In this document: positions 12,078 to 58,256 of the stretch, piece after piece
How positions within the stretch are numbered: position 1 is the first letter of the stretch
Layout of the letters: every line of letters starts with the position of its first letter
Assembly (NCBI RefSeq): GCF_000003815.2
Contig: NC_049995.1
Coordinates: forward strand, 2,214,154-2,278,153
DNA from: Branchiostoma floridae
Lineage: Eukaryota > Chordata > Leptocardii > Amphioxiformes > Branchiostomatidae
DNA: 64,000 bases
Direction: 5' to 3'
The notes under the pieces: model-generated
What the model was told of the DNA's origin: nothing
Database searches by the model: none
The model's input: the letters and a program-made list of their open reading frames with translations, nothing else
Translations under genes and position numbers: made by a program

Positions 12078-12241
12078 TTATCTGGAACTGGTTTTATCCT
12101 GAGCATCACTGCTGGATGATGAGGGGTCCCTCTTGGTTGATGGGTTAACAATTCTGGTTAACGGGTTATCAGCGTCATCGTTGTCTCGCAGTCTGTTCAG
12201 GTCTTCCACCCAAGACTGCACAGATGGATAATTGAACTTTC
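12078..12241 (-). CDS. HDDC2: HDDC2 terminal exon
   Basis: 164 bp from acceptor TTTCCACAG to TAA at 12080-12078. Encodes KFNYPSVQSWVEDLNRLR, then a low-complexity Asp/Ser-rich tail. It lies between two inverted ~700-bp transposon copies, so the 3'UTR probably runs into or through the left one. Confidence 0.9.
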
Positions 12242-15200
12242 CTGTGGAAACAAAAGGAGATATAAAGCTATTGAATAAAACCACCGGTAACAGAATAATG
12301 TACATGAAATCAGCTTTTCTGAACCAGCTGCAAAATTAGAGTCCATTCCAAGTCACCATGATGGATTTTAGGCGATATTTGTAATAAGTCTGAAATATTT
12401 TGAATAAAAGAATATCTGAGCCACAATAATTAGATTCTTTTCAAAAAATTGACAAAGGAAATGCTCATCTATTTGAATTCCTTTGAATCTTTTAGAAATA
12501 TTTTGAAAGTAACTGTACAAAAATATCTTTATTTAGAATAATTGTGAAACCTCTGTGTGATTATTTCACATTTACAAATATTTACAAATATTTACAAATA
12601 TTTGTAAACTTTGCCAAATGGTAAATTAGTTTATTGCCCCCATAAAAGTAAGCCCTATTGTTGCATCTGTATATTTTTAGATTTCCCTGCCGGGCACTGG
12701 TGGATCCTTTGTGGCGGGCCATTGTTGCATGGCACCCAACCATAATTTGCAAGGATGTGTGAATCGCTATCTTTCCAGCCCACTGAACCATTTACAAAAA
12801 ATGGTACAAAATGGTAGAAAATGGTAAATAATGGTGGAATGCTGTTATCATTATTTAGAAACCATTAGAAGTATCCAATGCCATATCATAAATATTTCCA
12901 AAGTTTTACAGGACCAGGGAAATATTTATAAAGTTGAAACAGTGTTAGAAATATTTCTAAAGTATCAAAGGTCTTAGACATATAATTACAAATCTTTAAA
13001 ATCAATTCTAAACAATGGCAACAAACATCCGCACGGTGACTTGGAATCGACTCTATAGGTATACGAAATTGTAATTAATAGAAGCTTCTGCATCTGTCCA
13101 CAAAGATTTTTTTTAAAGTGAAATCAGACTTTTAAGCGTAAAAAAACTAATGGCCTTAACCATAACTTGTTCAATCTTAACACAAGATGTCAATTGGTTG
13201 AAGATAAATGAGAAAACAAGGCTGAGTTGGAAACATGTTTGCTCTGTGAGCTTCTTTTGTCACTTGCAATTAGCCCTCGGGCAAAAATTCACAATAAACT
13301 TTGGAATAAATAGACCAGTCATTAATTTGGACAAGATGATCTGTAATTTTCGACAAAAAATTTGACTTGCTGACTTATCAAATGACCAACCAGTGTTTGT
13401 CAAGGAATGGGCAATCCACCATTTTTGTGCTGTCACGTTATTTGTGCAGATAGAGCGCGTGAGCAGTAGACTTAACAGCTCCCCCGTCTCTGTCAAAGGA
13501 GGGTTGTAAGAAGACTGAAGTTGGACAGTCAGCCAAAAATTTGGGTCAACTTTGCATCAAAATGATTTTTACCAAGTTGAACAAAGAATAACTTCAAAAC
13601 TAACCTCTTGTAGAGTTGAAGAAGTCTTGAAGTTGTCCAGGCCGATTCTGCAGTGTCTCATACTCGAAGGCTTGCAGGACCATGTCAAACTTGTCCAGAT
13701 CCTTTACTGCTTTAGCTTCTGCTGTGGACTCCATCTCATATTCCTATAAATGTACATTTAAAAACTAACTGATTAGAGGCAATTAGAATTGTCAGAGAGT
13801 TTAGTTGAGAAAGTCCAAAGTCCCTCTACAGAAACAGTTTCTTTCCTGGACAGCCAAACGATGGAAATCTCTCGGTGACAAGTGTTTTCCTCCTGTCTAC
13901 AACTTTTCAGCCTTCAAAGTAAATGTTCACCGCTATCTCCTTGTACAATTTTTTCCAAATTCTTGGTTCATGTACAATGACCTTGCTCTGAACAATCTCG
14001 TTAAAAAAGTTATACATTTTATGCCATCACACAATAGAAGTAACTATTATCTTTACACAGATATTGAAAGAAAACAATGAAACATGTATATTAATTACTA
14101 CTATACTAGTGGGAACTGGGAATCCTTAACAATTTTCCTTTATATTGCTTGGAGATAAGAGCATACTGCCCTTTCCTCAGACTGAGGCAATGACTTACAA
14201 CATCTACTGCAGTACTAAGAATGCTCCACTAGATGGTGCTACTTCACATGATCGTACACAATGTACGTCCATAAAACTCTGCAGTACCATCAGGCTTTAC
14301 TAGGTGATGCTATTTCATACTGACCTCCCATAGACTGTAGAGTTCCTTCCCTACCTCCCCTCCTACCATACCAGACAGGTGCAGCATGGCTTCCTGCCAC
14401 AGAAATGGAAATTAAACAAATGCAAAAAGGAGTTATTAATTTTCGAGAAAAGTGAGTCAAGCTAATGTATGATTCTAAAACTTGTTGATCAAAGAAATCG
14501 GGAAAGACTGAATAAGATTTTTTAAAGATATACATGTACAGTACTTCAGAAGTTCAGAAGTTACTCTCATCTAAAGATTTGAGATAATAATCCTAAGCCA
14601 TTTTCTGAATTTCAATTTTGTTATATGGCCATTACTAGCAGCATGATTTGTATGAATATAGATACAAATTTTGAAAGGCTGACAACCAATGTCATTTTCA
14701 ATGCTCTCATACAGTACATGTAGTTTTGAAAGAACATTTCACAAATACAAAATTTAAAAATCATATAAAAATTGCAGCATGATACTATAGGTAGCAGTAT
14801 ATTTGATGAGCAACAGAACAAGTATAATTTAGAACTGCCACAGAATTCAAAATACTCTGCTAGAATTCTTGTTTTGTTATCTACATAGATAGGACACTTT
14901 GCTATAAGGAACAGCAATGCCATGGGATGAAAAAAATGCCTCAAAACAAGAAAATTGCATCATGATATTCATGGTAGCTGTATATTTGATGAGAAACAGA
15001 ATAACTTCAATACTTGTCTCTTTATCTACATCCTCAGAAAGGTTTTTAAAGGAAACAGCGACTGGATGAAAAAATGGCTCAGTAGCTGTATATTTGATGA
15101 GAAACAGAATAACTTCAATACGGATAATTCTTGTCTCGCTATCTACATCCACAGGAGAGTTTGCTGAAGGGAACAACAACAGGATGAAAAAATGCCTCAG

Positions 15201-26358: not shown

Positions 26359-26665
26359 CTTGGATTTTCCTTCAGGAGAGCTCTAGTCAAAGAAACCTGA
26401 ATATATCCCAACGAAATCGGTAAAATGGAACCTCTTATAGTCAGGGAACGATCAAGAACCACGTAACAGTTCCTCAACACCTAGAACTGGAGAAAACACC
26501 CACTTTTAGCTGTCCGACGAGCATCATGAATTCGAGCAGTTTTCCCCTGGACGCCGCCATGTTGTTCTATGAGGTAACCAATCACAGCCGCTGTAAGAAA
26601 ATGTGCTAAAACCAAAGTCTGTGATTGGTCAATTTCAGCAAAAGGTCATAGACCAAAATGGCGGC
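26351..26665. promoter_or_regulatory. Bidirectional promoter of MRPL15 and MRPS28
   Basis: The two start codons are 299 bp apart, head to head. Each ATG lies in a YY1/TISU-like box: CAAGATGGCGTC on minus (26362-26351) and CAAAATGGCGGC on plus (26654-26665), each one base from the TISU consensus. CCAAT boxes occur at 26578-26582 and, inverted, 26624-26628; another GCCGCCATG is near 26553. No TATA box. Such boxes go with very short 5'UTRs and housekeeping mitochondrial genes. Confidence 0.75.
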
Positions 26666-41727: not shown

Positions 41728-41737
41728 AGGCTGCCCG

Positions 41738-41915: not shown

Positions 41916-42007
41916 TTCTTCAGTAAAAGAATGTTTGTCCCTGTGATGATAACTATTTTAGACATCTTGTCCCAGTTTCATTTTTGTGGAACTGGAACAA
42001 ACCTATG

Positions 42008-42114: not shown

Positions 42115-42221
42115 GAACAGCCTCATGTCATCAGGCACTTTTGCTATCCATCGACACACCTGCCAGCCTTTGAAAATTGATGTTCGAATCTCTCTATTGC
42201 CAGTCTCGTTTTACTCTTGAA

Positions 42222-42407
42222 TAATCTCCAAGCAGATCCCACGGTAGCATAAGGTAGTATCAAGAGCTGGCAGAGGAGTGAAGACGGCCTAGGAGTGTTT
42301 TTTTGCTACCAGGGTGCCCGTTTGACTCCCTTTGGTCGGATATACTCCTTTGCCAGCTTTGATAATACATTGTATCTTATGGCACCGTAGGATCTGCTTG
42401 GAGATTA
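42222..42407. mobile_element. Intact 186-bp TAATCTCCAAGCAGATC foldback
   Basis: TAATCTCCAAGCAGATCCCA...AGTATCAAGAGCTGGC pairs with GCCAGCTTTGATAATACA...TGCTTGGAGATTA. It supplies the uninterrupted form of the element split at 22302-23371. Confidence 0.9.
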
Positions 42408-42637
42408 CTGTCGTTTTTCGCCCAAACGTTCTCTGGTTTCTGCGTTTTGTTCGGACGAAATGTTGCAGTAGACATCGGTACCCTTGATGGTTTAAACTAA
42501 TATTTTTCCTGCCCGTTCGCAGGCGTGTCGCTGTGAACGCTTCATGCGACAGTTTTGCGGTATGTCTGCCTTTGTCGGGCACAACCGCGAACTTTGCGTA
42601 ACCTCCGTGAATTATGTTTTTATTACGCGGCGGGTCG

Positions 42638-42716
42638 CATTACATACTCTTCAAGCAGAGGTTAGGCTCCGGCTGTTTTTGACGTTTTTAGTCACTTTAC
42701 AGGCAGGGGCAACTCT
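42638..42716. mobile_element. Left end only of a TACTCTTCAAGCAGAGGTTAGG element
   Basis: TACTCTTCAAGCAGAGGTTA then GGCTCCGGCTGTTTTTGACG, as in 47216. Cut off where the next element begins. Confidence 0.7.
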
Positions 42717-43048
42717 TAGCCTACACCAGGCCTTCCTACGGGGGTGCGGGGATCGTAGAATTCGGCAAAAATCGGGAAATTGGTCAGGGGAGTCACTCCA
42801 CGCCAAGGTTCATGTTCTAATCTCCAGCCGATTTACCAGTGGCATACGGATTGTAGCTGGCTAATGGAGTGTTCCCCAGTCGCCCAGAACACTCCTTGAC
42901 CAGCTTAACTCCTTATGTCACTGGTAGATCTGCCTGGAGATTACCATGTTTCCCCTCCGGAGCGGTCGACCAACTCCTCTGGTAGCAAAACGTCCCTAGC
43001 AAATTATTCTCCCTACAATAGCTAGCGTAGTCAATCTGGTAGAGATTA
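42717..43048. mobile_element. TAGCCTACACCAGGCCTTCC element with a nested foldback
   Basis: Starts TAGCCTACACCAGGCCTTCC, GGGGATCGTAGAATTCGGC, GGGGAGTCACTCC. After the insertion it continues CAACTCCTCTGGTAGC, AGCAAATTATTCTCCCT and ends GGTAGAGATTA. Same body as 51398, 59250 and 61936. Confidence 0.85.
42818..42943. mobile_element. 126-bp TAATCTCCAG foldback nested in 42717-43048
   Basis: TAATCTCCAGCCGATTTACC...CAGTGGCAT pairs with TCACTGGTAGATCTGCC...TGGAGATTA. The flanks TCATGTTC / CCATGTTT are near-matching remains of a duplication. Confidence 0.85.
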
Positions 43049-43875
43049 GGCATCTCTATATTCTTGACACCCCAAAAGTGTGTGTAAGATTTAACGCGAG
43101 TTGAAAGTAAAAGTGCTGTAGATCTTTTCGTGAATTACTTTCCCTTGTGTCTTGGTGCTTTGTAAGTCGTTCCTTTTCATGTTTCGGAATCTTTGGAAAA
43201 GACCGCAGCGGCGCTGTGTAAGAACTATACCGATAGAACAGAGCTAGACGGAAGAAGAGGGCAACTTTGTGACTCAGCTTGAAATCAGAAAAACACTTTC
43301 TAGACTGAGTGTTGTAAAGCGTCCTTTGAAACAAGTTGCAGACAAGCAAAATCCAAAACCATGACCCATATAACCCATATCTGTTCACACTTTCGAACAA
43401 AATGTAAAGTGAATTTTAAGTGTGTATGTCAATAAGCTGTAAGTGAAAGTAGCAGAAACGACACCTTAAATCCAATTTGCAACTAGCTTTAAATTTAACA
43501 TTCAGTGAATTTACGTCACTCATTGAAAGTTCCCTTGTGCGCTTGAGAAAGTGGAAAATAATTCAAGTCAAAGCAGCGGTCGCATTCTGATCTCTGTAAC
43601 AGTAGAAACGTGTCGACCCTTGTGTTTGGGCTAAGTTGAGTGGGAGGGCCTGTGTGTATAAATATCGTGTTTGGATTGCGAATACTCGCGCGTACGTTTG
43701 TCTATGGTTATACGGGACGTGCCGTATTTTGATTACCCCGGATGCCATGCGTAGGGTGCCGCGCATACCGTCGGACCCCCGGCGGTGCCGTTGTGCGCCC
43801 GGCCCGGGTGGGTAGTGCCGGGGTCACCGCTTTCCCATGAATCTGAGTCCGTCTCCCTGCAGCCTCCCTCTAGCC

Positions 43876-44088
43876 TAGTCTCCAGGCAGACGTTTCAGCT
43901 GGATAAAAAAACGAGAAGAATCTGGTTAGACAGGGACAAATTGATACTAATGGATTTTCAGTCAGTCTTTCGCAGTCGCTGGCCGGTCATTTCACCCCTT
44001 GGCCAATTAACTTCTACTAGAATTTTATTCCTAACTTGGCCAAATTCACCTATTACTATTCGACCATGCCGGAGTCTGGTAGCGTCTA
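43876..44088. mobile_element. TAGTCTCCAGGCAGACGT foldback family member
   Basis: The left end TAGTCTCCAGGCAGACGTTT, CAGCTGGATAAAAAAACG. The right end holds CTAACTTGGCCAAATTCACC, ATTCGACCATGCCGGAGTCTGG. Relatives at 48835 and 50421 share CAGCTGGAT...GGCCAA. Confidence 0.65.
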
Positions 44089-44092
44089 CCTC

Positions 44093-44450
44093 TAGCCTCC
44101 TACCCTTCAAAGGAATATATGTCAAGAAAGGAATATATGTTGGGAAGCTTGTATCCTGCTGTGGGCTACTCTCCAAGCAGAGGTTGAGTCGCGTAGATAT
44201 AGTAGTAGTAGTCGGAAAAATTACACGGGCGCTCGTAAGAGGTTAATTGCACGAAATTCCAAACTTCAATGGTGGTGTGGTCCAGCTTGATAACTTCGCT
44301 TTGTTGCACCATTCGTATGCACTGGCAAATGGGGTGTGCAATTAAGCGGCTTCTACTGTATTCCTTTCCCTGCATCAGAACCTTCGCGAATCGACCTCCC
44401 CCCAACAATGCCCAACAGTGCCCACACAGAGAGGCCGGTGAAGGAGGCTA
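44093..44450. mobile_element. TAGCCTCC...GGAGGCTA element containing two further insertions
   Basis: The outer element matches 24407-24715: TAGCCTCC, AAAGGAATATATGTC, GGAAGCTTGTA at left; CCTTTCCCTGCATCAG, CGCGAATCGACC, GGCCGGTGAAGGAGGCTA at right. Between the halves are a TACTCTCCAAGCAGAGGTTG piece (from 44167) and the pogo-like fragment 44243-44360. Confidence 0.75.
44243..44360. mobile_element. Fragment of the CAGTGGAAGCCGCTTAATTG pogo-like family
   Basis: TTAATTGCACGAAATTCC at the left and GTGCAATTAAGCGGCTTCTA then CTGTA at the right, as at the end of 8261-9003. The left TIR is truncated. Confidence 0.7.
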
Positions 44451-44639
44451 CCACCATGAATCTGACTCCGTCTCCCTCGCCGGCAGAGGGAGTCAACTGT
44501 GATGGATGAAAACCGTTTCACTCGTTGACAGGCAGTCAGAGGAAAGCGCAAAGAGGGTATTACCGCGAACCTGTGTTAGTGTAACATGAGTTGAGTGCAG
44601 TGGCTGGGCAAGAAAGGATGCAGCCGTGATAGCCTGGTC

Positions 44640-44990
44640 CATAGCCTGGATACGAGACCCTATCTCTGATGGAGGATATAAATGTCAGTTGCCATAGACC
44701 ACTTGCACCACAACCGGCCGGCTATTATACCGTAATATACGAAGGGGACCCATAGCATGATCTCTGGGCCTTTTATTGCCGCGGGACGGCCTGGTGGGGG
44801 CTATAAATGTCACTTGCCATATACACTTGCACCACCACCGCCCGGCCATTACACCAAGGCCGGCCCGTCGGCAGGACAGCGGTGCGGGCGGCGGTCGCAC
44901 GCTCCCGGCTGTCGTCAGGGTCATGACGTCACGCGCCGAGGGAATGCTGGGGCGTCGAATCTGACCTTGGTCGAGGTCCAATGACTTTGA
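44640..44990. repeat. Internal direct duplication in GC-rich intergenic DNA
   Basis: TATAAATGTCA(G/C)TTGCCATA followed by CACTTGCACCAC(A/C)ACC occurs at about 44678 and 44801, each near a TCTCTG / GATCTCTGGG segment. No gene seen. Confidence 0.6.
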
Positions 44991-45071
44991 CAACAACCAG
45001 AGAGCTCATGGAGCTGTGAAAGGAGTCACAGCTGATGTATGACTACCCTTTGCTTTTCTACTATGATAATA

Positions 45072-45213
45072 TAGCCTCTACCAGGCTCCACAGGACGCTG
45101 GAAAAATCGCAGAGATTGGCCAAATAAGACAGAAAACACGACAGAGGAGTACAGTGTCTTAGTTGGCAAATTTCTACTATTTTTCCAGTGACCTGTGCAG
45201 CCTAGTAGAGGCT
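45072..45213. mobile_element. Foldback element TAGCCTCTACCAGGCTCC
   Basis: TAGCCTCTACCAGGCTCCAC, GGAAAAATCGCAGAGATTGG, CCAAATAAGACAGAAAACAC pairs with its inverse ending CTAGTAGAGGCTA. Confidence 0.85.
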
Positions 45214-45241
45214 ACTATGACTAGAGGAACCTAAGAAAAAC

Positions 45242-45493
45242 TAGCCTGGATGCTAGACTGTTTTCAGTACTCTCCAAGCAGAGGTCGAGTCGCGGAGATA
45301 TACTAGTAGTCGAAAAAAATACAGAGCCGCTCCATCTCTGCTTGGAGAGTATGTTTTCAGGACCTATGCAGCTCAACTCCTGGGCTCTAGGGCCAACATG
45401 TCCCCAATGACATTTTACGGCAGGTCCCCTCTGAATTAGACCCTGATAAACACGATAGATAATAATGAGGTCCTGTGTCTGGTATCCAGGCTA
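45242..45493. mobile_element. TAGCCTGGATGC element split by a CAAGCAGA foldback
   Basis: Starts TAGCCTGGATGCTAGACTG and ends GTCTGGTATCCAGGCTA. The interior CTATGCAGCTCAACTCC...AGGTCCCC and CACGATAGATA match the TAGCCTGG family bodies at 10210 and 32563. Confidence 0.8.
45268..45351. mobile_element. 84-bp TACTCTCCAAGCAGAGG foldback with perfect 9-bp target duplication
   Basis: Arms TACTCTCCAAGCAGAGGTCG / CTCTGCTTGGAGAGTA. TGTTTTCAG at 45259-45267 and 45352-45360, exact. It shows that the CAAGCAGA family also makes 9-bp duplications. Confidence 0.9.
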
Positions 45494-45655
45494 GGAAAAA
45501 AACGAACAGAAACGCCGAAATAGACAGACACACAAGCACAGACGGTTACATCTGCTCGGAGACCGACCAAGAGCTATTCACTCGGTTAAAGAACCCATCA
45601 CATTTCAGAGTAGGGGTTCTTAATTCCAGGTGTGAGTGGATCAAATATATCAGAC

Positions 45656-45933
45656 TCAGCCTCTACCAGGCTCCACAGGTCACTGGAAAAATGGTAGAAA
45701 TTGGCCAAATGAGAAAGAAACACACCAGAAGGCGTTAGAATTTAGATGACCTTAGGTCACAAACTCCGATGGCGTGTTTTCTGTCTTATTTGGCCAATTT
45801 CTACTATTTTTCTAGCGACATTTGGAGCCGAAAACTGTCCTCCTCGGCCATCTAACTCCTCTGGCGTGTTTTCTGTCTTATTTGGCCAATTTCTAGTATT
45901 TTTCCAGCGGCCTGTGGAACCTGGTAGAGGCTA
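45656..45933. mobile_element. Foldback element (T)CAGCCTCTACCAGGC, partly triplicated arm
   Basis: CCTCTACCAGGCTCCACAGG...GGAAAAATGGTAGAAATTGG at left. TCTGTCTTATTTGGCCAATT occurs twice on the right (about 45780 and 45868) before CCTGGTAGAGGCTA. Probably a recombinant of two copies. Confidence 0.8.
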
Positions 45934-45939
45934 ATGAGA

Positions 45940-47210
45940 CTGGCGGACGTGACTGCTCACCTCTTATGTAAACAAAACGATCTGAAGTGTGAAATCGTAG
46001 TTATGTAACAGCCTAGTGAACCACACCAATCTATTGTGATGTGACATTTGCACCTTGGTATGTTAAATTGAATTAGGCCCGGCACCTCAAGTTACAGATC
46101 ACATCCACTACAGGCCCAAAATCCAATGCTAGAGGCCGAGAAAATGGAAAAGATGCCTATTTTTTTTCAAAATAGAAACGACAATATTATACCTCGTTAT
46201 AACAATATTTGAAGCGACAAAACGAGTCTTATCCTTGTATTCTGAAGTATCGCTTGCCAAACTACACAGTACAAGGTCACCACACTAATGTTACTTATAG
46301 AGCCACACCTTAGGCTACCACGCGACAAGCTTTACCATTTTAGATTATTATTTCTCGTTATAATATCATGTTGAACATTGCTGGAGGGGAACGAAGTTTC
46401 TTGTATGTCTTTTTTTTTATCTTTCAGAAATCAGTTCGCACCTCCATAAAATGTCCTTGCTGTGGCCTAACTAAATTTAATTGCCACTAATTACCATTAT
46501 GTAAGGTGCTTGACGCAGCCAAGTATGGATGACCTAAGCACAGATTAATTTCAATCAATTACCTCCCTTTAGGGCCAATGTCTTGGTGCGTGATTTAAAC
46601 TTTCCCACGGTAAACGACCTTTTAACCCAAAATTAAGATCATGATTTTTGACAATGCAGTTGTTCTGCGTTGTGAAATGCCGCTTGCTTATATAATAATT
46701 ATCTCCAATTAGATCGAGCAAGTTTTTTCTTCACATTTGATCAATAATGAGTTGGTCTTTACCAGATAAGGTTGGAGAATTAATTCGTGTGAAAATCCAA
46801 ACACTAGCGACAGGTGAATACATCACGCTCACCTGCTTGGATGCTACTTGCCAGAAAGTAAACCTACGTCGGTTTAAATGATGAAATTGACAGATTCTAT
46901 GACGTCACTGTCTGTGAAGGTTTTGACTTTTCCTTCTGACTTCTCCGGTGACATGCGGCAGCTTTGGTCTCTGTTGACAGGGGGGCGTTTGTCGCCGACC
47001 TTCGGTGCAAGTGTACTTATCATTTTTCTCTTAGACTATAGCTTCGGCTTGTTTTTGCAGGCCCGTATGGGCCTTTTCGTTCGTCTCTTTAGGGTCTCTA
47101 ACAAAGACACGAACAGAGATCAATGCATTAAGTGCTATAACATTGAACAGACTCACCTAACGCGGTTTATTACACCGAGAAAAGACGTACAAAGCTCACA
47201 ATAACTACTC
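45940..47210. other. Intergenic, no recognisable gene
   Basis: AT-rich stretch; a 108-codon plus frame at 46878-47204 has no domain or splice context. Confidence 0.5.
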
Positions 47211-47215
47211 TCCAA

Positions 47216-47545
47216 GCAGAGGATAGGTTCCGGTTGTTTTTAACGTTTTTAGGCGTTTTTATCGGGCTTTCTATTTTGCACCGTCTTCTTGATGTCTCGA
47301 AAACAGTACCAAATAGAAAGCCCGATAAAACGACGAAGAAAACGTCAAAGAACAACCAGGTACTCTCCAAGCAGAGGTCGAATCGCGCAGACATAGTAGT
47401 AGTCGAAAAAAAATTACACAAGCGCTCTTCCTGCAGCGCTTGTGTAATTTTTTCGACTACATGTACTACTATATCTGCGCGATTCGACCTCTGCTTGGAG
47501 AGTACAACCAGGGCCTAAACTCTGCTTTGACAAGTTTTGAGAGTA
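47216..47545. mobile_element. TACTCTCCAAGCAGAGGATAGG foldback, host of a nested copy
   Basis: Inner arms CGGGCTTTCTATTTTG / AATAGAAAGCCCG around GATGTCTCGAAAACAG. The right end CTCTGCTTTGAC...GAGAGTA is diverged. Confidence 0.8.
47361..47504. mobile_element. 144-bp near-perfect foldback nested in 47216-47545
   Basis: TACTCTCCAAGCAGAGGTCG, AATCGCGCAGACATAGTAGT pairs with its inverse over ~68 bp around the GCGCTCTTCCTGCAGCGC centre. CAACCAGG flanks both sides (47353-47360, 47505-47512). Confidence 0.93.
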
Positions 47546-47575
47546 CACAAGAACTGCACATCCGCTAGTGTACTT

Positions 47576-47770
47576 TAGCCTCCTTCATCGGCGTCTCTGG
47601 GAACCTTGGCGAATTTTTTTTTTCGGGGGGGGGGGGGGGTAGGTCGATTCGATTCGCGATTTTTAACCGAGAATATGCCGAGCAAGGAATATATGCCGGG
47701 AAAGGAATATATACCGGGAAGCTTGTACGGGCTAGACGAAATCTGGTTCCCAGTACTGGGACGCCGGTGA
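47576..47770. mobile_element. TAGCCTCCTTCATCGG foldback with perfect 9-bp target duplication
   Basis: AGTGTACTT at 47567-47575 and 47771-47779, exact. The right end stops at GACGCCGGTGA, lacking the final AGGAGGCTA expected from relatives. Contains T and G homopolymers (47612-47640). Confidence 0.85.
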
Positions 47771-47939
47771 AGTGTACTTGTCATTCAGCGCGCGCGCACG
47801 GGTAGCTTTGGGGGAACAATTATCCACCCGTAATTGGTTCCCCGGCACGCCCGCCGAACGTTCCCACGACAAGGTTCCCAGGACCCCGGGGAGCAAGGCC
47901 GCGCTAGCCTGCACCAGACGCCACTAGTGGCTCAAACGT

Positions 47940-48197
47940 TCTCTCCAAGCAGAGGTCGCGTAGATATAGTAGTAGTCGGAAAAAACACATGGGCGCTCCT
48001 CTTACCTCTGCTACTGAACGGAACGGCACAAGCGTATTAAATGTTATTACTTTGACACATTCAGGGCGTTTTGTACCTAGGTGCTAAATCTGTCCCGGGA
48101 GTTTAGGGTTTTTGCCGTGCGCCGTAAGAGGAGCGCCCGTGTGATTTTTCCGACTACTACTACTATATCTACGCGACTCAACCTCTGCTTGAAGAGT
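47940..48197. mobile_element. TTCTCTCCAAGCAGAGG foldback
   Basis: Arms with TCGCGTAGATATAGTAGTAG, GGGCGCTCCTCTTAC pair with GTAAGAGGAGCGCCC...CCTCTGCTTGAAGAGTA. Confidence 0.85.
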
Positions 48198-48207
48198 AGC
48201 TGAAACA

Positions 48208-48358
48208 TTCTCTCCAAGCAGAGGTTGATGGGGGGGAAATCGTGATATACCGTCTTTTTCTGCGAGCTATCCTGACAGAAAAAAGAGATATCCTGACAGA
48301 AAGACGACATATAAGAAAAAGGTCATGACTTCCCCGTCAAACTTCTGCTTGAAGAGTA
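48208..48358. mobile_element. Second adjacent CAAGCAGAGG foldback
   Basis: TTCTCTCCAAGCAGAGGTTG...TGGGGGGGAAATCGTGATAT; right end TTCCCCGTCAAACTTCTGCTTGAAGAGTA. CTGAAAC occurs on both sides of this copy. GATATCCTGACAGAAA is repeated in the centre. Confidence 0.75.
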
Positions 48359-48834
48359 ACTGAAACGTTTCTAACGTTCTCTAACGTTTCAAATATTCCT
48401 TAGATACTTTCTGGATACTCCAAGCAGGGGTTCGACTCGGTTGTGTTTTTAGGTAATCAGTCGGTTTTGTAGGATTTTCTATTTTGTACCGTTACAGGTC
48501 TGGCCAGCGGATTGAAGAAAACGGTACAAAATTACTAAAATTGGCCATTGGTTTTTATGTTTGAACTTGAATAGCATCTAGGTGTACTGTTTACGAGAGC
48601 TGAACAGTGAAAACGCTTGAACATCGCATGTTGATCGGTGCATGACAAGCAAGTTGGAAAAAATCAACAAGTGGTTGTGTTGCATTCTTTTTCGGCATCC
48701 AGAAACGAGCTATGTTTTCTTATCATGAAGGTTAGATTTGGTGAATTGAATTGTTGTATTTGTGGGACATCTTCAAAAAAAGCGACTTCATGTGGCCTTA
48801 AGAATACTGCCATGTCATCACATTTGCGCTGACG

Positions 48835-49042
48835 TAGTCTGCCGACCAGACGCCCACCTGGCCGAATAATAAAAGGGAACTTTGGCCAAGTTAGGAACAA
48901 AAGCTTGGCCTATAGCTAGGAGTGAACAGACATACTGGTAGCTAGCTGGATAGACTGCAAAGAACCCAATGAAATCCCATGGAAACTACATGGCCAAAAT
49001 CTTCTCTTTTTTCCATCTAGCTGACACGGCTACTTGGACACT
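48835..49042. mobile_element. TAGTCTGCCGACCAGACG element
   Basis: Left TAGTCTGCCGACCAGACGCC, right end CATCTAGCTGACACGGCTAC, TTGGACACTA. Shares AACTTTGGCCAAGTTAGGAAC with the 43876 and 50421 copies. Confidence 0.65.
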
Positions 49043-49067
49043 ACGGCCTAACGTATACATTCTGTCA

Positions 49068-49900
49068 TGATACTGCCATGTTATCAGCTTGGCACTGACG
49101 GGCGAGCCGCGTCGGTAAAATTGGAGCTGTGCATGTATCTCTGGTGTCTACATGCACCTAACCTGCACTGATCTATGAACTGGCTTTTATACATAAATGC
49201 CATATGATGTAAGTGTATGTGGATTGATATTACCTGCATTGAATGTTACTACCTATAAACTTTAGTATAACTATAAAGAAAAAAATAGCAATGGTTCCTG
49301 AACAATTTAAGTATGATCCATTTTCATAAATGCAGAGTGGTGCAGGCAATTTTCAATGTAACCTGCACCAGTGCATGTATGCAGAAAAAAAATATTTCGA
49401 GCCCTACGCATACTGTCATGATACTGCCATGTCATCAGGTTGGCGCTGACGGGCGTCAGGCGGCCCGGGTCAGCTGGGTGCCCGCCGAGCCGCGTCGGTA
49501 AAATTGGAGCTGTGCATGTATTTCTTGTGTCTACCTGCTCCTAACCTACACTGGTTTATGTACTGGCTTTTATACGTAAATATCATATGATGTAAGAGTA
49601 TGTGGATTGATACTAGCTGCATGTTACTACCTATCAAGTATAAAGAAAAAATAGCAATGGTTCCTGAACAATTTTAGTATGATCCATTTTCATAAATGCA
49701 GAGTGGTGCAGGTATTTTTCAATGTTACCTGCACCAGTGCAGGTATGCAGAAAAAAGTACTTCGAGCCCTGTCGTCATGATACTTCCATGTCATCAGCTT
49801 GGCGCTGACGGGCGTCAGGCGGCCCGGGTCATCCGGGTGCCCGCCGGGCGGCGTCGGGACCGGTGTCTGCCGAGCCGTTCTCGCGACCCCGGTGACCCCG
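49068..49900. repeat. Tandem repeat, ~350-360-bp unit, 2.3 copies
   Basis: CATGATACT(G/T)CCATGT(T/C)ATCAG starts at 49068, 49417 and 49776, followed by TGGCGCTGACGGGCG, AAATTGGAGCTGTGCATGTA, CATATGATGTAAG, CAATGGTTCCTGAACAATTT and GAGTGGTGCAGG. The first unit lacks about 10 bp present in the later ones. Confidence 0.9.
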
Positions 49901-50420
49901 ACACCACCGCCAAAGTAAAGGGCTTTGCAGACCCTTGACAAAGCCATGAAAATGGCGTGACGTCAAGATGAAGTGCGGTGCCAACATCAAGTCAAGCTCA
50001 GGTCAAGCCTCAACAACTTTTGGGTCTGCCTTGGTGGCCGGCAAAAGTCATCGGCCTGTTGTCAAAACGTCAATCTCATGGAATAAACACAGGGTTTGGG
50101 ATGGATCTGAATGGTAGTTTACTCGGCTTAGAGCCTCGCTAGCTCAAGTTTTCCAACTCATTGAGAATCAATTCAACCATCGAGAAAATTATGAAGACAG
50201 AGGCTGCCCTTGGGAGGCATTGTTGGGTCAAAGGGCAGTCACCTCTTCTGACCTAGGTCGCCATGCTCGGACATTGTGTGGCAGTGGCCTTCCGACATGG
50301 CCTCTACACCATTATTCTTTTGCGGTTGGATAAAGAATAGAATTGGTCAAAATAGGGTGCAAGGTTTGACAGGGGTCAGCTTGTTGTCTGTTGGCTAGAT
50401 AACCTCTCTGGTCAATGATT

Positions 50421-50650
50421 TGTCTCTACCAGGCTCCGGCCTGGCCGCACAGTAATAGACCACTTTGGCCAAGTTTGAAATAAAAGCCTGGTAGGAGTTA
50501 CATGTAATTGGCCTAGGAGTGAACTGACCGGCCGGTGGATAGTTGGATAGACTGCAAGAGACTGACTGAAATCCCACGGCAACTTGTTTGTCCCTATCTG
50601 GCCAAATTCGTCCCTTTTTTCATCCAGCTGACACGTCTGCTTGGAGACTA
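50421..50650. mobile_element. TGTCTCTACCAGGCTCC...CTGCTTGGAGACTA element
   Basis: Left end resembles the TAG(C/T)CTCTACCAGGC family; right end AGCTGACACGTCTGCTTGGA resembles the TAGTCTCC family. Central ACCACTTTGGCCAAGTTTG and GGCCAAATTCGTCCC. Confidence 0.7.
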
Positions 50651-51267
50651 TACAAATGATAAACCTTGTCACGTTCTGATCGAACTATTCCTCTGAATGT
50701 TGTGGTCATAGAGGTGTAGGTGGGAGACTGTAATTGGGTACTTGTGGTCTAGGTCGCATACTACTACTAGTACTTGCGTCGTTTCTTTTCTTGTGGCCAG
50801 AGTGTTGTTTGTGTGGAGTTTCAATTACGTCGGAGGGAAATTGAATATACATGGCCTTTTCATTCTCTGGTGCAGAAAACGCATTTGACTCTTTCTCAGA
50901 GAGAAAGCGCGATAAAAACATGTCTCAATGACCTTTTCGAATTCAAGGACCTTTCGGCGACATTAAGGCATTACTGAGATCATTATCTTCGTTACATAAT
51001 ACGCGTTACCCTGCGGCACCTAAGTCGACATTACGGTCTCCGCCCATCCATTCTCACGGTTCGCCACAAAAATTCAAAATTATTCGATGAAAACTTTTTT
51101 TCTCTGGCCCATTTATTCCTCTGCCAAGTTGTTCACCCGCTAATTTTAGTGAGATTTTTTTTCAACTCCCAACCTAGTATGGTGAGGGCCAGTGACCCAG
51201 TCGGCCATGTGGCACCTGAGTTGGACCGCTTGCCTCTTTGGCAGACCTCTGGGGTGGTGGCGTCCTT

Positions 51268-51300
51268 TTTGGGGGGGGGGGGAGGGGGAGGGGGGGGGTA
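51268..51300. repeat. G-rich homopolymer run
   Basis: About 30 bases of G with three A interruptions; G-quadruplex-capable. Confidence 0.8.
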
Positions 51301-51397
51301 CATGGGCTACAGGTGGTTCTATGCCTGGAAAGGGAGTTTTGTCAGCATAGAGAACCTTAGCTGATGTTGAAAGTCGCGAATCAGCGCTCTGGACCCC

Positions 51398-51557
51398 TAG
51401 CCTCCACCAGGCATTCCTACGGGCGTACAGGATCATAGAATTCGGCAACAAAATCAGGGAATTGGCCAGGGGAGTCAGTCCACTCCTCTAGTATCAAACT
51501 CCCCAGGCAAATTATTCTTCCTAGATCTGAGCTGGTGTAGTCAGTCTGTAGAGACTA
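51398..51557. mobile_element. TAGCCTCCACCAGGCATTCC element (intact, 160 bp)
   Basis: TAGCCTCCACCAGGCATTCC, TCATAGAATTCGGCAACAAA, GAATTGGCCAGGGGAGTCAG, then CTCCCCAGGCAAATTATTCT and TGTAGAGACTA. The simplest uninterrupted copy of this family. Confidence 0.85.
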
Positions 51558-51732
51558 CAAGAAGTCTGCGAGGGAGGCAAATAAACGGGCTATGATAATC
51601 AATAGTGCAAAATCGCATCATTGACAGGTTGATCTTGTCAACAGTGCAATGTTTTTAAAACTGCTGACAGGATCATCCTAGTTGTCAATAGCCACGTCCA
51701 TCATCTGTAGCAATCTTCGTCTTTATTACACT

Positions 51733-51821
51733 TAGCCTGGTTACCAGACCCCAGTCTGATCTCAAAAATATCTATTGTGCAAGGTAGATATTTTTGAGGT
51801 TGGGGTCTGGTATCCAGGCTA
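51733..51821. mobile_element. 89-bp TAGCCTGGTTACCAGACCCC foldback
   Basis: Pairs with GGGGTCTGGTATCCAGGCTA around AAATATCTATTGTGCAAGG. ATTACACT follows on the right and precedes on the left (8 of 9 bases of the expected duplication). Confidence 0.88.
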
Positions 51822-51910
51822 CATTACACTCGGAACAACGTTTGTCTTATGAATACGCAGAGCAAACCACCAGACTTCCTTCGGGACTGTGAAGGACTTA
51901 CCAGAACTAG

Positions 51911-52186
51911 TAGTTGACTAGAAAAGGTCAACTAATGCACTGAACTCTTCTGGATAATGAGACACACACCACCAAGCGTTGGCCGACCTTACGCAGTTGT
52001 CATTACGACAGGCCGGGGACACGCACCGGACTTCTGCGGGCAGCCGCCTGAGTAATGACCGCTTTCCCGGGCCCAGCTCCGGACGCCGTCCGCCGACCGA
52101 CCGTGCGTAAGGTCGGCCAACGCTTGGTAGTGTGTCTCATTATCCAGAACCGTTGAGTGCATTAGTTGACAGTCAACTATTAGTCA
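51911..52186. mobile_element. 276-bp foldback element (AGTTGACTAGAAAAGGTC ends)
   Basis: TCAACTAATGCACTGAACTC, TTCTGGATAATGAGACACAC and CAAGCGTTGGCCGACCTTAC pair with the right arm around a GC-rich centre. TTGACAGGTTGATC/CTTGTCAATAG motifs occur on both sides outside it (51620, 52340). Confidence 0.85.
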
Positions 52187-52564
52187 CAGTCCAGAATGAA
52201 GTCTGTTGGGGTGTTCTGCGCCTGGGAAAAACGAGTTGTTTTTCGTGAAATGACGAGACGGACATTGCCTGTCATTGGCATTGCCAAAGACGATATGGAC
52301 ACAGTGTCAACAGTGAAAAAATTGCAATGTTGACACGATAATCTTGTCAATAGTGAAGAAAATTGCACTGCTGACAAGATCATCCTGTCAATAATTTTGT
52401 TCACTATTCATTATCATCCTGTCAATAGCCACGGACAAAGACGATGTTTTGGTGCTGTCCTGTCTCGTAAGCGACTGCAGTGCACCAGTGGAAAACCAGA
52501 CGTAACACCTTGCCTAGCTAGACCGGCAAACTCTCCCTAAATGACAAATCCCCGGTGTGCTTAT

Positions 52565-52650
52565 CTAAGGCCTTCGGGAAGACCTGCCCTGGCTGCCGAA
52601 CAAATTCTCTGCCGCCCTGGCTAAAAGTCTGGTTTCCAGGGTAGAAGTGC
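52565..52650. repeat. Repeat fragment shared with 19545-19605
   Basis: GGCTGCCGAACAAATTCTCT then GCCGCCCTGGCTAAAAGTCTG; the copy in the HDDC2 intron is close. Confidence 0.6.
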
Positions 52651-53420
52651 CCCAGCTGTGCGATTGGTTCCATCTTCCTAGCAGGTCTAGAAGCCAGACG
52701 CACCCGCAGTTCTTGTTATATGATATATTTGGACAGACCATGGCCTTAATCCTCGTTCGATCCGTCAATTGCTTTCAAACTGGTGAGAGCCTGTTTCAAC
52801 CCAAGTCATAAAAGATGTCAAAAGATGTTATTAATTATCTCCTTTCGTCGTCGAAAGAATAGCCGAAAAGTAAGCTCATACTATAGTTTGACAACTAGTC
52901 CTTCTACATAGCCAACTCGTCTTCTAAATCATTTAGCCAATTTCTACTATTCTTTACGGGACATTTGTGGGGCTAGTGCGACCAGTGTTGGGGACCGGTG
53001 AAATGAAATGGCAGTAGAGCCCACACAAGCAGATATCGACGCATTCCTGTCCGTATCTAGAGCCTGTCGCGACCCTAAACCTGGTAGCCTGGATACTAAA
53101 TCGCCGATCTCAATGATATATCTACTTCTTCTTGATAAACCCGATATCGATCGTGTCAAGGTCTAAGCCATGAGGACCTGCCGTAGAGTTTCCTTGTTGG
53201 CCCAACCTGGCCTATGTTACTATATGTAGGCCCTGGAAACAGTCTGGCATCCAGGCTATAAACTTGGGTACCAGGCGCGAAGGATGGTCAATCTTTCGGC
53301 TACCGTACGTTCTAGGCTATATACCCGCCGAGTTAGCCCTCCCGTGGGACAACAGTAGCCTTCAAGATCAACATACCCTGCAGCCACAGAACGAGTCTGA
53401 GACCGGATTATTGTTCATCT

Positions 53421-53515
53421 CACGGTGTGTGCATAGACGACATTCCGACCGCCGGGAGGACGGCCGTCCGATCCGTGTCTTGCGGGCGGCCCAGCGTTGG
53501 TCTGCGGTGGTCTCC
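53421..53515. repeat. Direct repeat copy 1 (partner 53814-53905)
   Basis: CGGTGTGTGCATAGACGACA, TTCCGACCGCCGGGAGGACG, CGGGCGGCCCAGCGTTGGTC. The second copy sits at 53814 with scattered changes and no net frame shift. Confidence 0.75.
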
Positions 53516-53713
53516 ACTAGACTGACTACGCTGGCCATTATGTTTGTATTTTTACATGTCATATGTCCAGGAAGCTTAGCTGAGCCTGAGTACAAGTTGT
53601 TGCTTTTTTTTGTTAGTATGTCAGCTAATGAACAAATAATGCATCCAAAGAACAAGAGGAGTCGGTCGGCCTCGTCTTCGGAGGGGAAACATGAACCTAA
53701 GCCGCAGTAAGCG

Positions 53714-53806
53714 TCGACTGACTCCCCTGGCCAATTTCCCGATTTTTTTGCCGAATTTTACGATCCCTGCACCCCCATATCCTATAGGAAGGCCTGGTGG
53801 AGGCGT
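53714..53806. mobile_element. Half element of the TAGCCTCCACCAGGCCTTCC family, inverted
   Basis: GACTCCCCTGGCCAATTTCC, GCCGAATTTTACGATCCC, then AGGAAGGCCTGGTGGAGGC: the left third of the family in reverse orientation, next to direct repeat copy 2. Confidence 0.75.
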
Positions 53807-53813
53807 TTATTAC

Positions 53814-53905
53814 ACGGTGTGTGCCTAGACGACATTCCGACCGCTGGGGGGACGTACGCCGCGTCCGTGTCGAACGGGCGGCCCAGCGTCGGCCCGCGGC
53901 TTCCT
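53814..53905. repeat. Direct repeat copy 2 (partner 53421-53515)
   Basis: CGGTGTGTGCCTAGACGACA, TTCCGACCGCTGGGGGGACG, CGGGCGGCCCAGCGTCGG. Confidence 0.75.
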
Positions 53906-54078
53906 CTAACAGGGGACGCGGTGCCCTGATTATCCACGGCGGCTTTAGGACGGATAAGGAAGGCTCTCCCCGTGCCCCTGTTGTATTTTGAGGACGTTAT
54001 CAGATCGATTATTGCCAGTAATCTGTTTGCGCACGCCTGGAGTCTCGCAGGGCTCCGCCACGATCTACAACGATTAGA

Positions 54079-54565
54079 TTCGACACGTCTGAAACACTGT
54101 AGCGTGTGGTGCCACATCATTCATAATTGCTATAGCTAGCCTGCGTGGCAGCCCCCGAACTCAATAATGACCATCGTGTTTATCAGGGTCTAATGTGAAT
54201 CTGAGGGCCCCGCCACGAAAACAAGCCAATCCATAACGATTACAGTCGACATGTCTGAAACACTGTAGCGAGCGTGTGGTGCCGCCCAATTGAACATATT
54301 CATTCAAAAAGTGTATATATAGCTATCCTGGATGTCAACCCCCAATGGCCCAAACTCAATAATATTCATCGTGTTTATCAGGGCCCCGACACGAAACCAA
54401 GCCAATCCACAGCGACTAGCTTCGACATATCTGAAACACTGTAGCGTGTGGTGGCTGGTGCTGCCCAATTGTACATATCATATTCAAAAAGTGTATATAG
54501 CTATCCTTGATGTCAGCCCCCAATGGCCTTAACTCAATAATATTCATCGTGTTTATCACGGTTTA
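54079..54565. repeat. Tandem repeat, ~170-bp unit, three copies
   Basis: GACA(C/T)(G/A)TCTGAAACACTGTAGC starts at 54079, 54249 and 54424, followed by GTGTGGTG, GCCCAATTG, AGCTAT, CCCC(A/G)A and CAATAAT...ATCGTGTTTATCA. Confidence 0.9.
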
Positions 54566-54663
54566 AGTGAGTATCTGTTGTAGAATTCATTTGATAGCAT
54601 ATTTGCCCTAGACTAGAGCAGAAAAGTTGGCTTGTGTGAGCACTGAAAGCAGCCTTGCATCCA

Positions 54664-54712
54664 TGCTAGTGTGTAGCATGCTAGTGTGTAGCATGCTAGT
54701 GTGTAGCTGACG
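54664..54712. repeat. 15-bp tandem repeat
   Basis: GCTAGTGTGTAGCAT three times, the last ending in CTGACG. Confidence 0.85.
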
Positions 54713-55693
54713 CTGTGTGTTCAAAATGACTGTACTTCCACTGAAGTTTTAGTAGGGGCCCTTTCTATCTAGTCGACTTGTCGTCAGCTCGTCTAACCTC
54801 CGAGATTTGATCAGACAAGGCTTTTTGTCGTACATACTTTGAATGCATGTTCTGTACGGGGATTAACTTTCTTTACAGCGAGTCTCGGCAGCTTTTATAC
54901 TTTCTATGAGACACACTTGGTTTTATCTCTTGTGGAAATCTTGGTTTTGGGTACTGAAGACATATGGGTCCCGGGTCTTCAACTAAGTACTGAATCCAAA
55001 ACAACTTGCAATCGAACACTTGCTACTGTTACTTTCTTGTGGTAGAATATAAGACTAACAGTTAAAACTAGATCGCCGAACCTTTCTCACCCAACTGTAC
55101 GCACCTCCCATGTTATTATTTAGGCCCATATAGAAAAGAAACGAGACATTTGCATGGTTCAAAGTTTGTGACATTATATTCACACGGATTCCTGTTCTCA
55201 GTCATATACAATTTTACAACAGGGCAAAATAAAATTTCTTTACTTCTGATGTAGAAAAATACAAAAGAACCACAAAACACAAAACGTTACACTCAGACGA
55301 AGAAACAAACGATTTGTCCAATGGTAAATGTGGTTACAAAATTGTCAAAAGTTTGATTGCAGAAGCTCGCACATGATTGGCTACTACACTGATTGATACA
55401 CAGAAATTGAATTCATGATTGGTTCCTATGGCAATTAAATTAACGTGGCTATAACCGTCATATCAAATGATTTACTACCTAACGCTTGACCTTGCAAAGT
55501 AATGCAAGCAAGGCAATGACTAAAACGTCTGGACACACAAGACCTGCTTGTCACACGGTCTTGGACTTGGTATGACCGGACGAAAAACAAGTAGACGCTA
55601 CTATCATCAACTCTTCTTTCACATTTTGGTCTGTTAGTGATATTTTCAATATTTACAGCAGTCTATGGACAAGTCCAACAACAGAGTTTATGT
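54713..55693. other. Hey 3' flank, no coding feature
   Basis: AT-rich; presumably includes the Hey 3'UTR. No minus-strand AATAAA could be fixed close to the stop codon. Confidence 0.5.
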
Positions 55694-56262: not shown

Positions 56263-58256
56263 CTGGAAAATACACGGGGGAAAACTTGGTTAGAGACCAC
56301 GCGAATGAGAAACTTTATTGTGATACCCTTTTAAAATAGCCATATTCAGAACTAGTCTTCCAGGGTTCGAAATTCGAACAATAAAACATGCAAGTACGGC
56401 AAAGACATATAAATATAGATTAAAGATCAAAATTAAAGACACAAACACAGAGACCGTGCCAATGAGTGAGTAATCCTTATCATTGTCATATCGCAACTAA
56501 AATTTGACTCTAACAAACACAAGCTAAGAGGGTGGTGGACAAATTCCACAACACTGCATCTGCCGTGTCTGAAATTAATCGAGAACGATCGTTTCAGAGA
56601 TAACCGTGATATAATAGAACATGTGGTTTTCCTCAAAGAGATAGCACACAACAATACCACATAGAGTACCAGTGGAGTTAATCGTCCTAACAAAAGAAAG
56701 ACCCAAAGGACGACCCATTTTCTAACGGATAACAAGATCACACAACGTCTAAAATAAAAACTTTAAACACTCATATAACCTCCCTGATACCCCAGAGTGC
56801 CCATAATATCTAAAGACTCGATACTGAGTTTGATGAAACTGGACAAAAACTAATCTTCACGTATCATTCCCTCAACCGCTTTTTGACAGTTGAAATACAG
56901 TTCACCCACAAACTTCCGTTCCGATAAAAAAAAAGCGTCGTCAACAATGTAAGAAAACCTTTCATCTTTTAACGCCCATGTAAAGCTAAGCTACTGTAGT
57001 CTTGAGTATTGTGTATTCAAGTCTTCCGCATTTGAATGAGAGAGAGAAAAGCCCTTGACGGACGTCAGAGGTTCGATAGGCGAGTGAAAAGCCGCCTGAG
57101 AACACTACAGGCACCCGCGGCCCTTTCTAACGACTGAAAGGGTTTTGCCGAAATCTCAACAGTCGCCACAATGCCGGCGGGCGTACACTTACACGGCCGG
57201 GCCTTTAGGACACAACCCGGCCACTTAACGTAAGAAAATAGAGGCCGCTATCCCACGGTATCGCTTACACGAGTCTGCTTGTCTTGACAAACATGCATTA
57301 CGCCTTAGCTCTCAGCCAACACCGCGATATCCGCGCACTATTTATTAAAACTTAACCGTTCTTAACAAGACAAAAGGAGGACGAGCTTTACCTTTCGCGG
57401 CCAGCATTTTCAGGTAGTCCACAGTCATCTGCAGGATTTCCGCTTTCTCCAACTTGGCTGACCCCTGGTGGATGAAAACAAGCACAGAGCGTTGGTCGGC
57501 GTGAAGCCATACAAAGGGCAAGGCAGGTGTCATACCGTGCTATACCCTCTAGCAAAACGTTTTTACGACAACGTGAAAACAACAAAGGTGCGAGCCAGAC
57601 AACAAGAGCGGCGTGACCTAGGGAAACAGGACCGGTAAAGCCACCGTGTACTAGTATTCTTGCGGTCCAAATTGATATAACAGAAGCGGAAGTGGGGAGG
57701 AAACTCTAAACCGTGAGAAAAAGAGAGAAGGCACAGTCAAATCTTTGTCGAAATTATAATATTATACCGTACCTGTTTTTCGAAAGCGGTGGGGACGAGT
57801 CGTCGAAGCTCGGCAAGACAATTGTTGATCCGATCGCGGCGTCTCTTCTCAATAATCTGCAAACGATGAAGGATTACCGCGGTAAGCATACACACCAATT
57901 GTTGCTCATTCAATAAACATCAGCAAAAGTGAATAAAAAGTGTAAAAATTGAAGGGAGGAATGTTATATATAGGACACTTACCCCTCGTCGCTTCTTTCT
58001 TGAACTCATCTGGCAACTTTGGCTGGGGGACCTGTAGAGGAAACAACAGAATGACACGCGTTAGACAAGCGGCGCTAAATATCTCTAACCCCTCAACGGC
58101 CTTGCGGCACGTGTCACCCAGAATCAACGCCAAAATATTTCCAAAAAACTCAGAAAAAAATATTGAATAAACCACTGAGGATTAAACCTACCCCTTCGTC
58201 TCTTCGAAAACGCTGTCGTCTTCGCTCTCGATGCTATCGGAAAAGGACCGCTTCAT
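55694..58256 (-). CDS. Hey: Hey, bHLH-Orange transcriptional repressor with YRPW motif (complete)
   Basis: Exons 58256-58192, 58031-57983, 57856-57773, 57464-57392 and 56262-55694 join to 279 codons plus TGA with consensus sites. The acidic-Ser N-terminus is [15 protein letters not shown]. The basic region and helix 1 span residues ~33-66 ([34 protein letters not shown]) with Gly where Hes proteins have Pro, the Hey hallmark. Helix 2 is at 67-91 ([19 protein letters not shown]). The Orange domain follows ([43 protein letters not shown]). A Pro/Ser/Thr-rich stretch leads to [13 protein letters not shown], the YRPW plus terminal motif. Vertebrate HEY1/2/L bind E-boxes as dimers with HES or each other, repress in the nucleus downstream of Notch, and act in heart, vessel and somite development. 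CSL sites upstream fit Notch control. Confidence 0.97.
57392..57464 (-). CDS. Hey: Hey exon 4 (helix 2)
   Basis: 73 bp, acceptor ATCCACCAG, donor AAGGTAAA, phase 0 to 1. Encodes [19 protein letters not shown] then MLAAK. Confidence 0.95.
57773..57856 (-). CDS. Hey: Hey exon 3 (basic region, helix 1)
   Basis: 28 codons, phase 0 to 0, acceptor GTTTGCAG, donor CAGGTACG. Encodes [17 protein letters not shown] then [11 protein letters not shown]; contains the Glu and Arg residues that contact the E-box. Confidence 0.95.
57983..58031 (-). CDS. Hey: Hey exon 2 (pre-basic region)
   Basis: 49 bp, acceptor CTCTACAG, donor GGGGTAAG, phase 2 to 0. Encodes [16 protein letters not shown], the end being the start of the DNA-binding basic stretch. 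The alternative frame ([12 protein letters not shown]) would break the bHLH and is rejected. Confidence 0.88.
58192..58256 (-). CDS. Hey: Hey exon 1
   Basis: ATG 58256-58254; 21 codons plus two bases, donor GGGTAGGT, phase 2. Encodes [15 protein letters not shown] then VFEETKG. The Met-Lys-Arg start matches vertebrate HEY proteins (MKR). Confidence 0.9.

Follow-up and report, generated by a model that had tools for sequence, protein, structure and literature searches.

A linked Hey, MRPS28 and HDDC2 in amphioxus as the probable single-copy form of the human HEY1 and HEY2 blocks

We analyzed a stretch of 64,000 nucleotides of Branchiostoma floridae DNA (contig NC_049995.1, positions 2,214,154 to 2,278,153; hereafter the window), in which a single Hey gene lies beside MRPS28, HDDC2 and MRPL15. 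The 3′ ends of Hey and MRPS28 face each other across 36216..55693, MRPS28 (+) and HDDC2 (−) stand head to head, and MRPL15 is nested within HDDC2. Genes that are now split between two human copies adjoin in the window, with the MRPS28/HDDC2 pair beside Hey. We conclude that the window is very probably the invertebrate single-copy form of a block that vertebrates carry twice, around HEY1 and HEY2, and that was resolved there by reciprocal loss.

Results

Gene models at the Hey locus

Exons were joined at GT-AG borders and the reading frame was checked, yielding intact models for Hey (five exons), MRPS28 (three), HDDC2 (six) and MRPL15 (a single open reading frame, ORF); the introns of all models are GT-AG without exception (Table 1). 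Pfam and PDB searches together with these rebuilt models bear out a first-pass annotation that had placed the four genes here, and the reading frames are intact. The predicted Hey protein contains basic helix-loop-helix (PF00010) and Orange (PF07527) domains and a YRPW motif near its C terminus, and it matches the HEY1 Orange domain (2db7) at 1.8e-15 versus 3e-4 for HES1 (7c4o). Within ~1 kb upstream of Hey lie four of the 22 strict matches in the whole window to YGTGRGAA, which we take to be the Su(H)/RBPJ-type motif; these putative sites are in keeping with Notch control of Hey. The five exons show the 2-0-0-1 phase pattern given for HEY1, HEY2, HEYL and a sponge Hey in an excerpt of PMC3396596.

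HDDC2 had been described as nearly complete. Its first exon was located upstream of MRPL15, and the gene is complete. This exon comprises 57 bp of coding sequence (MAASRGKLLEFMMLVGQLK), starts with an in-frame ATG and ends at a phase-0 donor, GTGGGT. It joins exon 2 (acceptor CAG) as QLK|RVPRTGW, which is presumably also how human HDDC2 reads across this join. Since the similarity of exon 1 alone is weak (tblastn E 0.85), phase and the join to exon 2 carry the identification; a relaxed exon-1 motif had its single match at this exon among 3308 six-frame pieces of at least 12 aa.

Because exon 1 of HDDC2 lies upstream of MRPL15, MRPL15 is placed inside HDDC2 intron 1 (23589-26503), on the same strand as its host and starting 145 bp after exon 1, and a plain row of four genes was rejected. 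The MRPL15 ORF is uninterrupted, with no introns compared with the 2 to 5 of its three neighbours. It matches mammalian uL15m over almost its full length (best E 1.5e-121, PDB search), and an AATAAA lies 31 nt beyond its stop codon.

The absence of any other gene between these four had also been proposed. The list of ORFs with a minimum length of 60 aa has 348 entries, of which 50 were scanned against Pfam; none of the 40 other long ORFs among them (70-192 aa) gave a match above the curated cut-off, four gave weak sub-threshold matches, and further protein genes among the scanned long ORFs were rejected on this basis. No recognised protein family was found among the long ORFs scanned between MRPS28 and Hey, and no tRNA or Rfam RNA match was found in the window. 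The proposal therefore holds for the scanned ORFs, but short exons of an unrecognised gene may be present.

Within MRPS28, the 3′ end of exon 2, its donor and the start of the following intron are tandemly repeated (163-bp period, 4.0 copies, 28733-29375), and a weaker further copy extends to 29471. The repeat units resemble competing donor-like sites, not extra exons; 163 is no multiple of three.

Table 1 Positions of genes and sequence features at the Hey–MRPS28–HDDC2 locus, numbered from the first nucleotide of the window
Feature	Position	Strand	Details
Hey (bHLH-Orange, YRPW)	58256-55694	-	5 exons, phases 2-0-0-1, 279 aa
Hey exons	58192-58256, 57983-58031, 57773-57856, 57392-57464, 55694-56262	-	rebuilt model
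Strict Su(H)/RBPJ-type sites (YGTGRGAA) upstream of Hey (58257..59219)	58352 -, 58543 +, 58989 -, 59212 -		low coordinates given
MRPS28-to-Hey 3′-end interval	36216..55693		19.5 kb, many dispersed and inverted repeats
MRPS28 (bS1m)	exons 26658-26924, 28591-28775, 36059-36215	+	PF10246, 3e-23
Candidate bidirectional promoter	26561..26657		97 bp between start codons
CCAAT boxes, opposed	26576-26584 +, 26622-26630 -		in the 97-bp region
Perfect 11-bp inverted repeat	26577-26587 / 26619-26629		contains the two CCAAT boxes
HDDC2	26560-12078	-	6 exons, phases 0-2-0-0-1, complete; Pfam HD_3; match to human HDDC2 4l1j (PDB search)
HDDC2 exons	26504-26560, 23464-23588, 21445-21547, 14325-14393, 13605-13743, 12078-12241	-	
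MRPL15 (uL15m)	26358-25468	-	one ORF, 296 aa, PF00828, inside HDDC2 intron 1
TISU-like SAASATGGCGGC on MRPL15 start	26351-26362	-	1 mismatch
TISU-like SAASATGGCGGC on HDDC2 start	26553-26564	-	exact
TISU-like SAASATGGCGGC on MRPS28 start	26654-26665	+	1 mismatch

A candidate promoter between HDDC2 and MRPS28

Only 97 bp separate the start codons of HDDC2 and MRPS28, well below the 1 kb that delimits a bidirectional promoter, and the intervening region looks like such a promoter, whose activity the two genes may share. It carries two opposed CCAAT boxes contained in a perfect inverted repeat. When the start codons are included, the two halves align as CTGTGATTGG...TCATAGAMCAAMATGGCGGC with a score of 31, whereas 2000 dinucleotide shuffles reached 30 at most.

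The start codons of MRPL15, HDDC2 and MRPS28 all coincide with sequences resembling the translation initiator of short 5′ untranslated regions (TISU). At up to one mismatch the window contains six such matches, of which these are three, versus 0.54 expected from shuffles, and none of 100 shuffles reached six. TISU is enriched in very short 5′ untranslated regions, many of them from mitochondria-related mRNAs, according to an excerpt of PMC6347283. Homology between the region upstream of MRPL15 and the HDDC2–MRPS28 promoter was considered and rejected, the two being alike only in the start-codon motif and some coding bases. Among the matches listed in a search of the open literature, none dealt with the HDDC2–MRPS28 pair or with a Hey block in an invertebrate.

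Comparison with the human HEY1 and HEY2 regions

In the available part of a copy-number table for 8q21.13, the genes run HEY1, MRPS28, TPD52, ZBTB10 and on (PMC2966422); in that for 6q22 they run NKAIN2, STL, RNF217, TPD52L1, HDDC2, LOC643623, HEY2, NCOA7 and TRMT11 (PMC4657880). MRPS28 thus appears after HEY1 and before TPD52, whereas HDDC2 follows TPD52L1 and precedes HEY2, from which LOC643623 separates it in the list. These excerpts agree with the human placements put forward by the first-pass annotation, MRPS28 near HEY1 and HDDC2 near HEY2. If the lists are read as map order, the order Hey–MRPS28–HDDC2 in the window equals the sum of the two: HEY, MRPS28 and HDDC2 occupy matching relative positions, but each list, as excerpted, keeps only one of MRPS28 and HDDC2 and neither includes MRPL15, whereas the window has all of them. 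The probability that both Hey neighbours would by chance be genes of the HEY–TPD52 interval is ~1e-6, a rough estimate from a presumed total of about 20,000 human genes.

The core inference, that one ancestral block held Hey, MRPS28 and HDDC2, is well supported by these data, and the simplest account is a duplication after which one copy lost HDDC2 and the other MRPS28. We propose that the ancestral order was Hey–MRPS28–HDDC2–(TPD52), in which a single short promoter served both MRPS28 and HDDC2, placed head to head. After duplication, the 8q copy would have kept MRPS28 and lost HDDC2, the 6q copy would have kept HDDC2 and lost MRPS28, and Hey and TPD52 would have been retained on both. Linkage may have been maintained by Hey enhancers located in the introns of the neighbours, so that MRPS28 and HDDC2 would be bystanders held by Hey. 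Such an arrangement is exemplified by the human enhancer hs1305, which lies in an MRPS28 intron and was assigned to HEY1 and STMN2 by synteny and expression (PMC3599049, in part). MRPS28 is likewise the neighbour of a HEY gene in the window, where it could play the same bystander part. MRPL15 would most likely be a later arrival in HDDC2 intron 1, a retrocopy that is now the working gene.

MRPL15 as a candidate retrogene

MRPL15 is named in neither human list as excerpted (8q21.13, PMC2966422; 6q22, PMC4657880), is intronless and sits in a host intron. For these reasons it was not counted, and it is no evidence for the ancestral block. The proposal that one ancestral block held all the genes therefore stands for Hey, MRPS28 and HDDC2, as the human lists indicate, but not for MRPL15.

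The likeliest reading, although unproven, is that MRPL15 is a retrocopy that took over as the working gene, because a retrogene replacement has been published for amphioxus SYCP1 (PMC5803294). In the available part of that report, SYCP1, which is multi-exon in most animals, is in amphioxus a working gene with a single coding exon near a candidate bidirectional promoter, as MRPL15 is here. The two cases differ in that SYCP1 adjoins CHIC and reaches the promoter via a multi-exon 5′ untranslated region, whereas MRPL15 is nested in a host intron on the same strand. Counting against a retrocopy, no exact flanking repeat of at least 9 bp (target-site duplication) was found around MRPL15 in the stretches compared, and no poly(A) tract is visible in the 3′ sequence read, although both marks would have eroded if the event was old. 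No MRPL15 relatives were found in two contig collections, neither of which is of animal genomes.

Another history, which we regard as possible but somewhat doubtful, would make MRPL15 a member of the ancestral block that vertebrates moved along 8q after the duplication, its intronless state being either old or the result of intron loss in place. The missing insertion marks would fit this history, as would an intact and highly conserved gene and a human MRPL15 on 8q. We presume that location, as well as several exons in human MRPL15; neither was found in the papers searched for them. The presumed multi-exon state of the human gene speaks against this history, as do the contrast between an intronless MRPL15 and neighbours with 2 to 5 introns, its position inside the intron of another gene, and its absence from both published human lists as excerpted.

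MRPL15 could use the HDDC2 promoter through a spliced leader, with phase-0 exon 1 of HDDC2 joining the MRPL15 frame at 26382. An AG at 26383, preceded by GGTTTCTTTGACT, permits this in-frame join (26382-26504) and hence a possible chimaeric leader, and retrogenes that recruit bidirectional promoters with 5′ exons are reported in an excerpt of PMC5803294. We consider the leader unlikely. A join would be in frame by chance in 1/3 of cases, ten AGs occur within the 145 bp, and the TISU-like element on the MRPL15 ATG suggests a very short 5′ untranslated region and a start site of its own; the leader itself is a prediction from sequence.

Discussion

The block of Hey, MRPS28 and HDDC2 is real and well preserved, a further instance of a type of evolutionary relic that is already familiar. 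Comparable cases are already known, both of ohnologue blocks resolved by loss and of retrogene replacement in amphioxus. Reconstructions of proto-vertebrate and amphioxus genomes before whole-genome duplication (PMC8302630) follow the same logic, setting one invertebrate block against several vertebrate ohnologue copies; they are chromosome-scale, and the passages available from that source do not mention the Hey–MRPS28–HDDC2 block. Beyond what the first-pass annotation recognised, our analysis adds that HDDC2 and MRPS28 form a head-to-head pair with a promoter they may share, and that MRPL15 is nested and intronless.

The duplication with reciprocal loss was weighed against two other origins of the linkage. 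An ancient block could have been split in vertebrates by translocation, which would be compatible with the gene order of one human genome taken alone. HEY and TPD52 paralogues are present on both human copies, which duplication explains and translocation does not, and we judge a translocation very improbable. Independent joining of HDDC2 and MRPS28 beside Hey in this lineage, for which the differing orientation of Hey could be cited, is hardly credible given that, in the lists for the two human copies, each Hey neighbour is a gene that stands between a HEY and a TPD52 paralogue.

Several observations nonetheless weigh against a shared ancestral block of the proposed form. Human HEY1 is encoded on the minus strand and human HEY2 on the plus strand (PMC3396596, in part); given the order of the lists, transcription of both runs away from the side of MRPS28/HDDC2, whereas the window Hey is transcribed towards MRPS28. 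Hey is therefore inverted relative to both human copies, and one inversion has to be assumed. The earlier suggestion that the window preserves the unsplit order thus survives for the order Hey–MRPS28–HDDC2 but not for the orientation of Hey. The comparison also assumes that the excerpted lists of PMC2966422 and PMC4657880 are in map order. A third list, in the available part of PMC9318831, divides these 6q genes into two groups, one with HDDC2 and the other with HEY2, and indicates no order. An excerpt of PMC2246290 places Drosophila mRpL15 at 3L:77C3 and mRpS28 at 2R:55E2, on separate arms, and the block was therefore not kept everywhere.

The flanks yielded none of the further members expected from the vertebrate blocks. 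A tblastn search of the window with human protein sequences not drawn from a database found no TPD52, TPD52L1, NCOA7 (TLDc part), STMN2 or HINT3, although only 12 kb are available on the far side of HDDC2, the place where TPD52 would come next; these include the TPD52 and NCOA7 relatives that the first-pass annotation had proposed to look for in flanking sequence. Against the 3308 pieces, a profile built from two TPD52 proteins, likewise not drawn from a database, gave nothing better than E 3.5 (9982-10056 +) and E 5.7 (16166-16243 +). Neither candidate has a donor directly behind it, the former resembles TPD52 over 13 residues (FSSVGSVITKKLE / FTHVGNVIRKELE), and both were read as chance; the two are, moreover, in the wrong order for one plus-strand gene. 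No other TPD52 piece scored E 1 or better in the left 12 kb. In an HDDC2 control with the same profile search, all six exon pieces were recovered at E up to 10, three of them strongly and the others at 0.16, 1.5 and 5.6. Because control exons also scored weakly, weak TPD52 scores alone are not decisive.

The Hey phylogeny goes no further than failing to contradict a pre-duplication origin of the gene. The tree has six rows, and the five other than the window Hey are sequences not drawn from a database. The window protein is identical to them at the following fractions of aligned residues: HEY1 86/114, HEY2 86/116, HEYL 77/115, fly Hey 81/115 and HES1 47/104. The window Hey pairs with fly Hey at support values of 92/90 and 91/93, which fall short of strong support; no strongly supported fork holds the window gene, and by path length HEY1 or HEY2 lies closest to it. 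When the window Hey was held with single vertebrate genes, approximately unbiased (AU) p values were 0.034 for HEY1, 0.090 for HEY2 and 0.10 for HEYL. A check set beforehand asked whether this Hey falls within one vertebrate HEY clade. It falls inside none, but only the HEY1 pairing is rejected at p<0.05, and pairing with HEY2 or HEYL is not. The vertebrate HEYs themselves were not recovered as one group (p 0.076 when held together).

As for the promoter, CCAAT-type matches are common in the window, with 27 versus 9.9 expected, 11 of them in one tandem repeat. Without the part that includes the start codons, the dyad score was reached by 2/2000 shuffles and by 45/2766 control centres in the window, and for this reason the dyad alone is not exceptional.

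The results can be joined into one bolder scenario, which we offer tentatively. MRPS28 and HDDC2 would have been born as a head-to-head pair on a mirror-image promoter beside Hey. The duplications would have kept opposite halves of the pair on the two HEY copies, each half surviving as a host of HEY enhancers. MRPL15 would then have inserted into HDDC2 intron 1, 145 bp from the start of that intron, and taken the place of its parent gene, creating a hub of three TISU-type start codons within about 300 bp. The locus offers a small, clean test case of what becomes of a shared-promoter pair after whole-genome duplication, with each copy keeping a different partner next to the same developmental gene. 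Two predictions can be made: by analogy with the HEY1 enhancer reported in MRPS28, HEY2 enhancers are to be looked for within HDDC2 or close to it, and the head-to-head arrangement of MRPS28 and HDDC2 should recur in outgroup genomes. The nested MRPL15 is, in addition, a candidate second retrogene replacement alongside amphioxus SYCP1.

Other features of the window

The part of the window to the right of exon 2 of MRPS28 abounds in dispersed and inverted repeats. Inverted repeats of 61-80 bp, 85-97% complementary, occur with dispersed relatives at 44165-48200, 45072-45933, 61405-61581 and 62024-63084; these are probably small non-autonomous transposons. Two plus-strand ORFs, at 1670-1966 and, in MRPS28 intron 1, at 27211-27510, have an SxFPRTIxEWN-type stretch in common, which we take to resemble the tail of a long interspersed nuclear element (LINE) reverse-transcriptase ORF; neither has a Pfam match. 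At its left edge the window holds a collagen triple-helix ORF (17-718, −), whose 60/120-bp tandem repeat reaches that edge. About ten copies of a 56-bp tandem repeat, containing 11 CCAAT-type AGCCAATCA matches, occupy 2552-3129. The GC content of the window is 43.5% and its observed/expected CpG ratio 0.73, values that fit many invertebrates.

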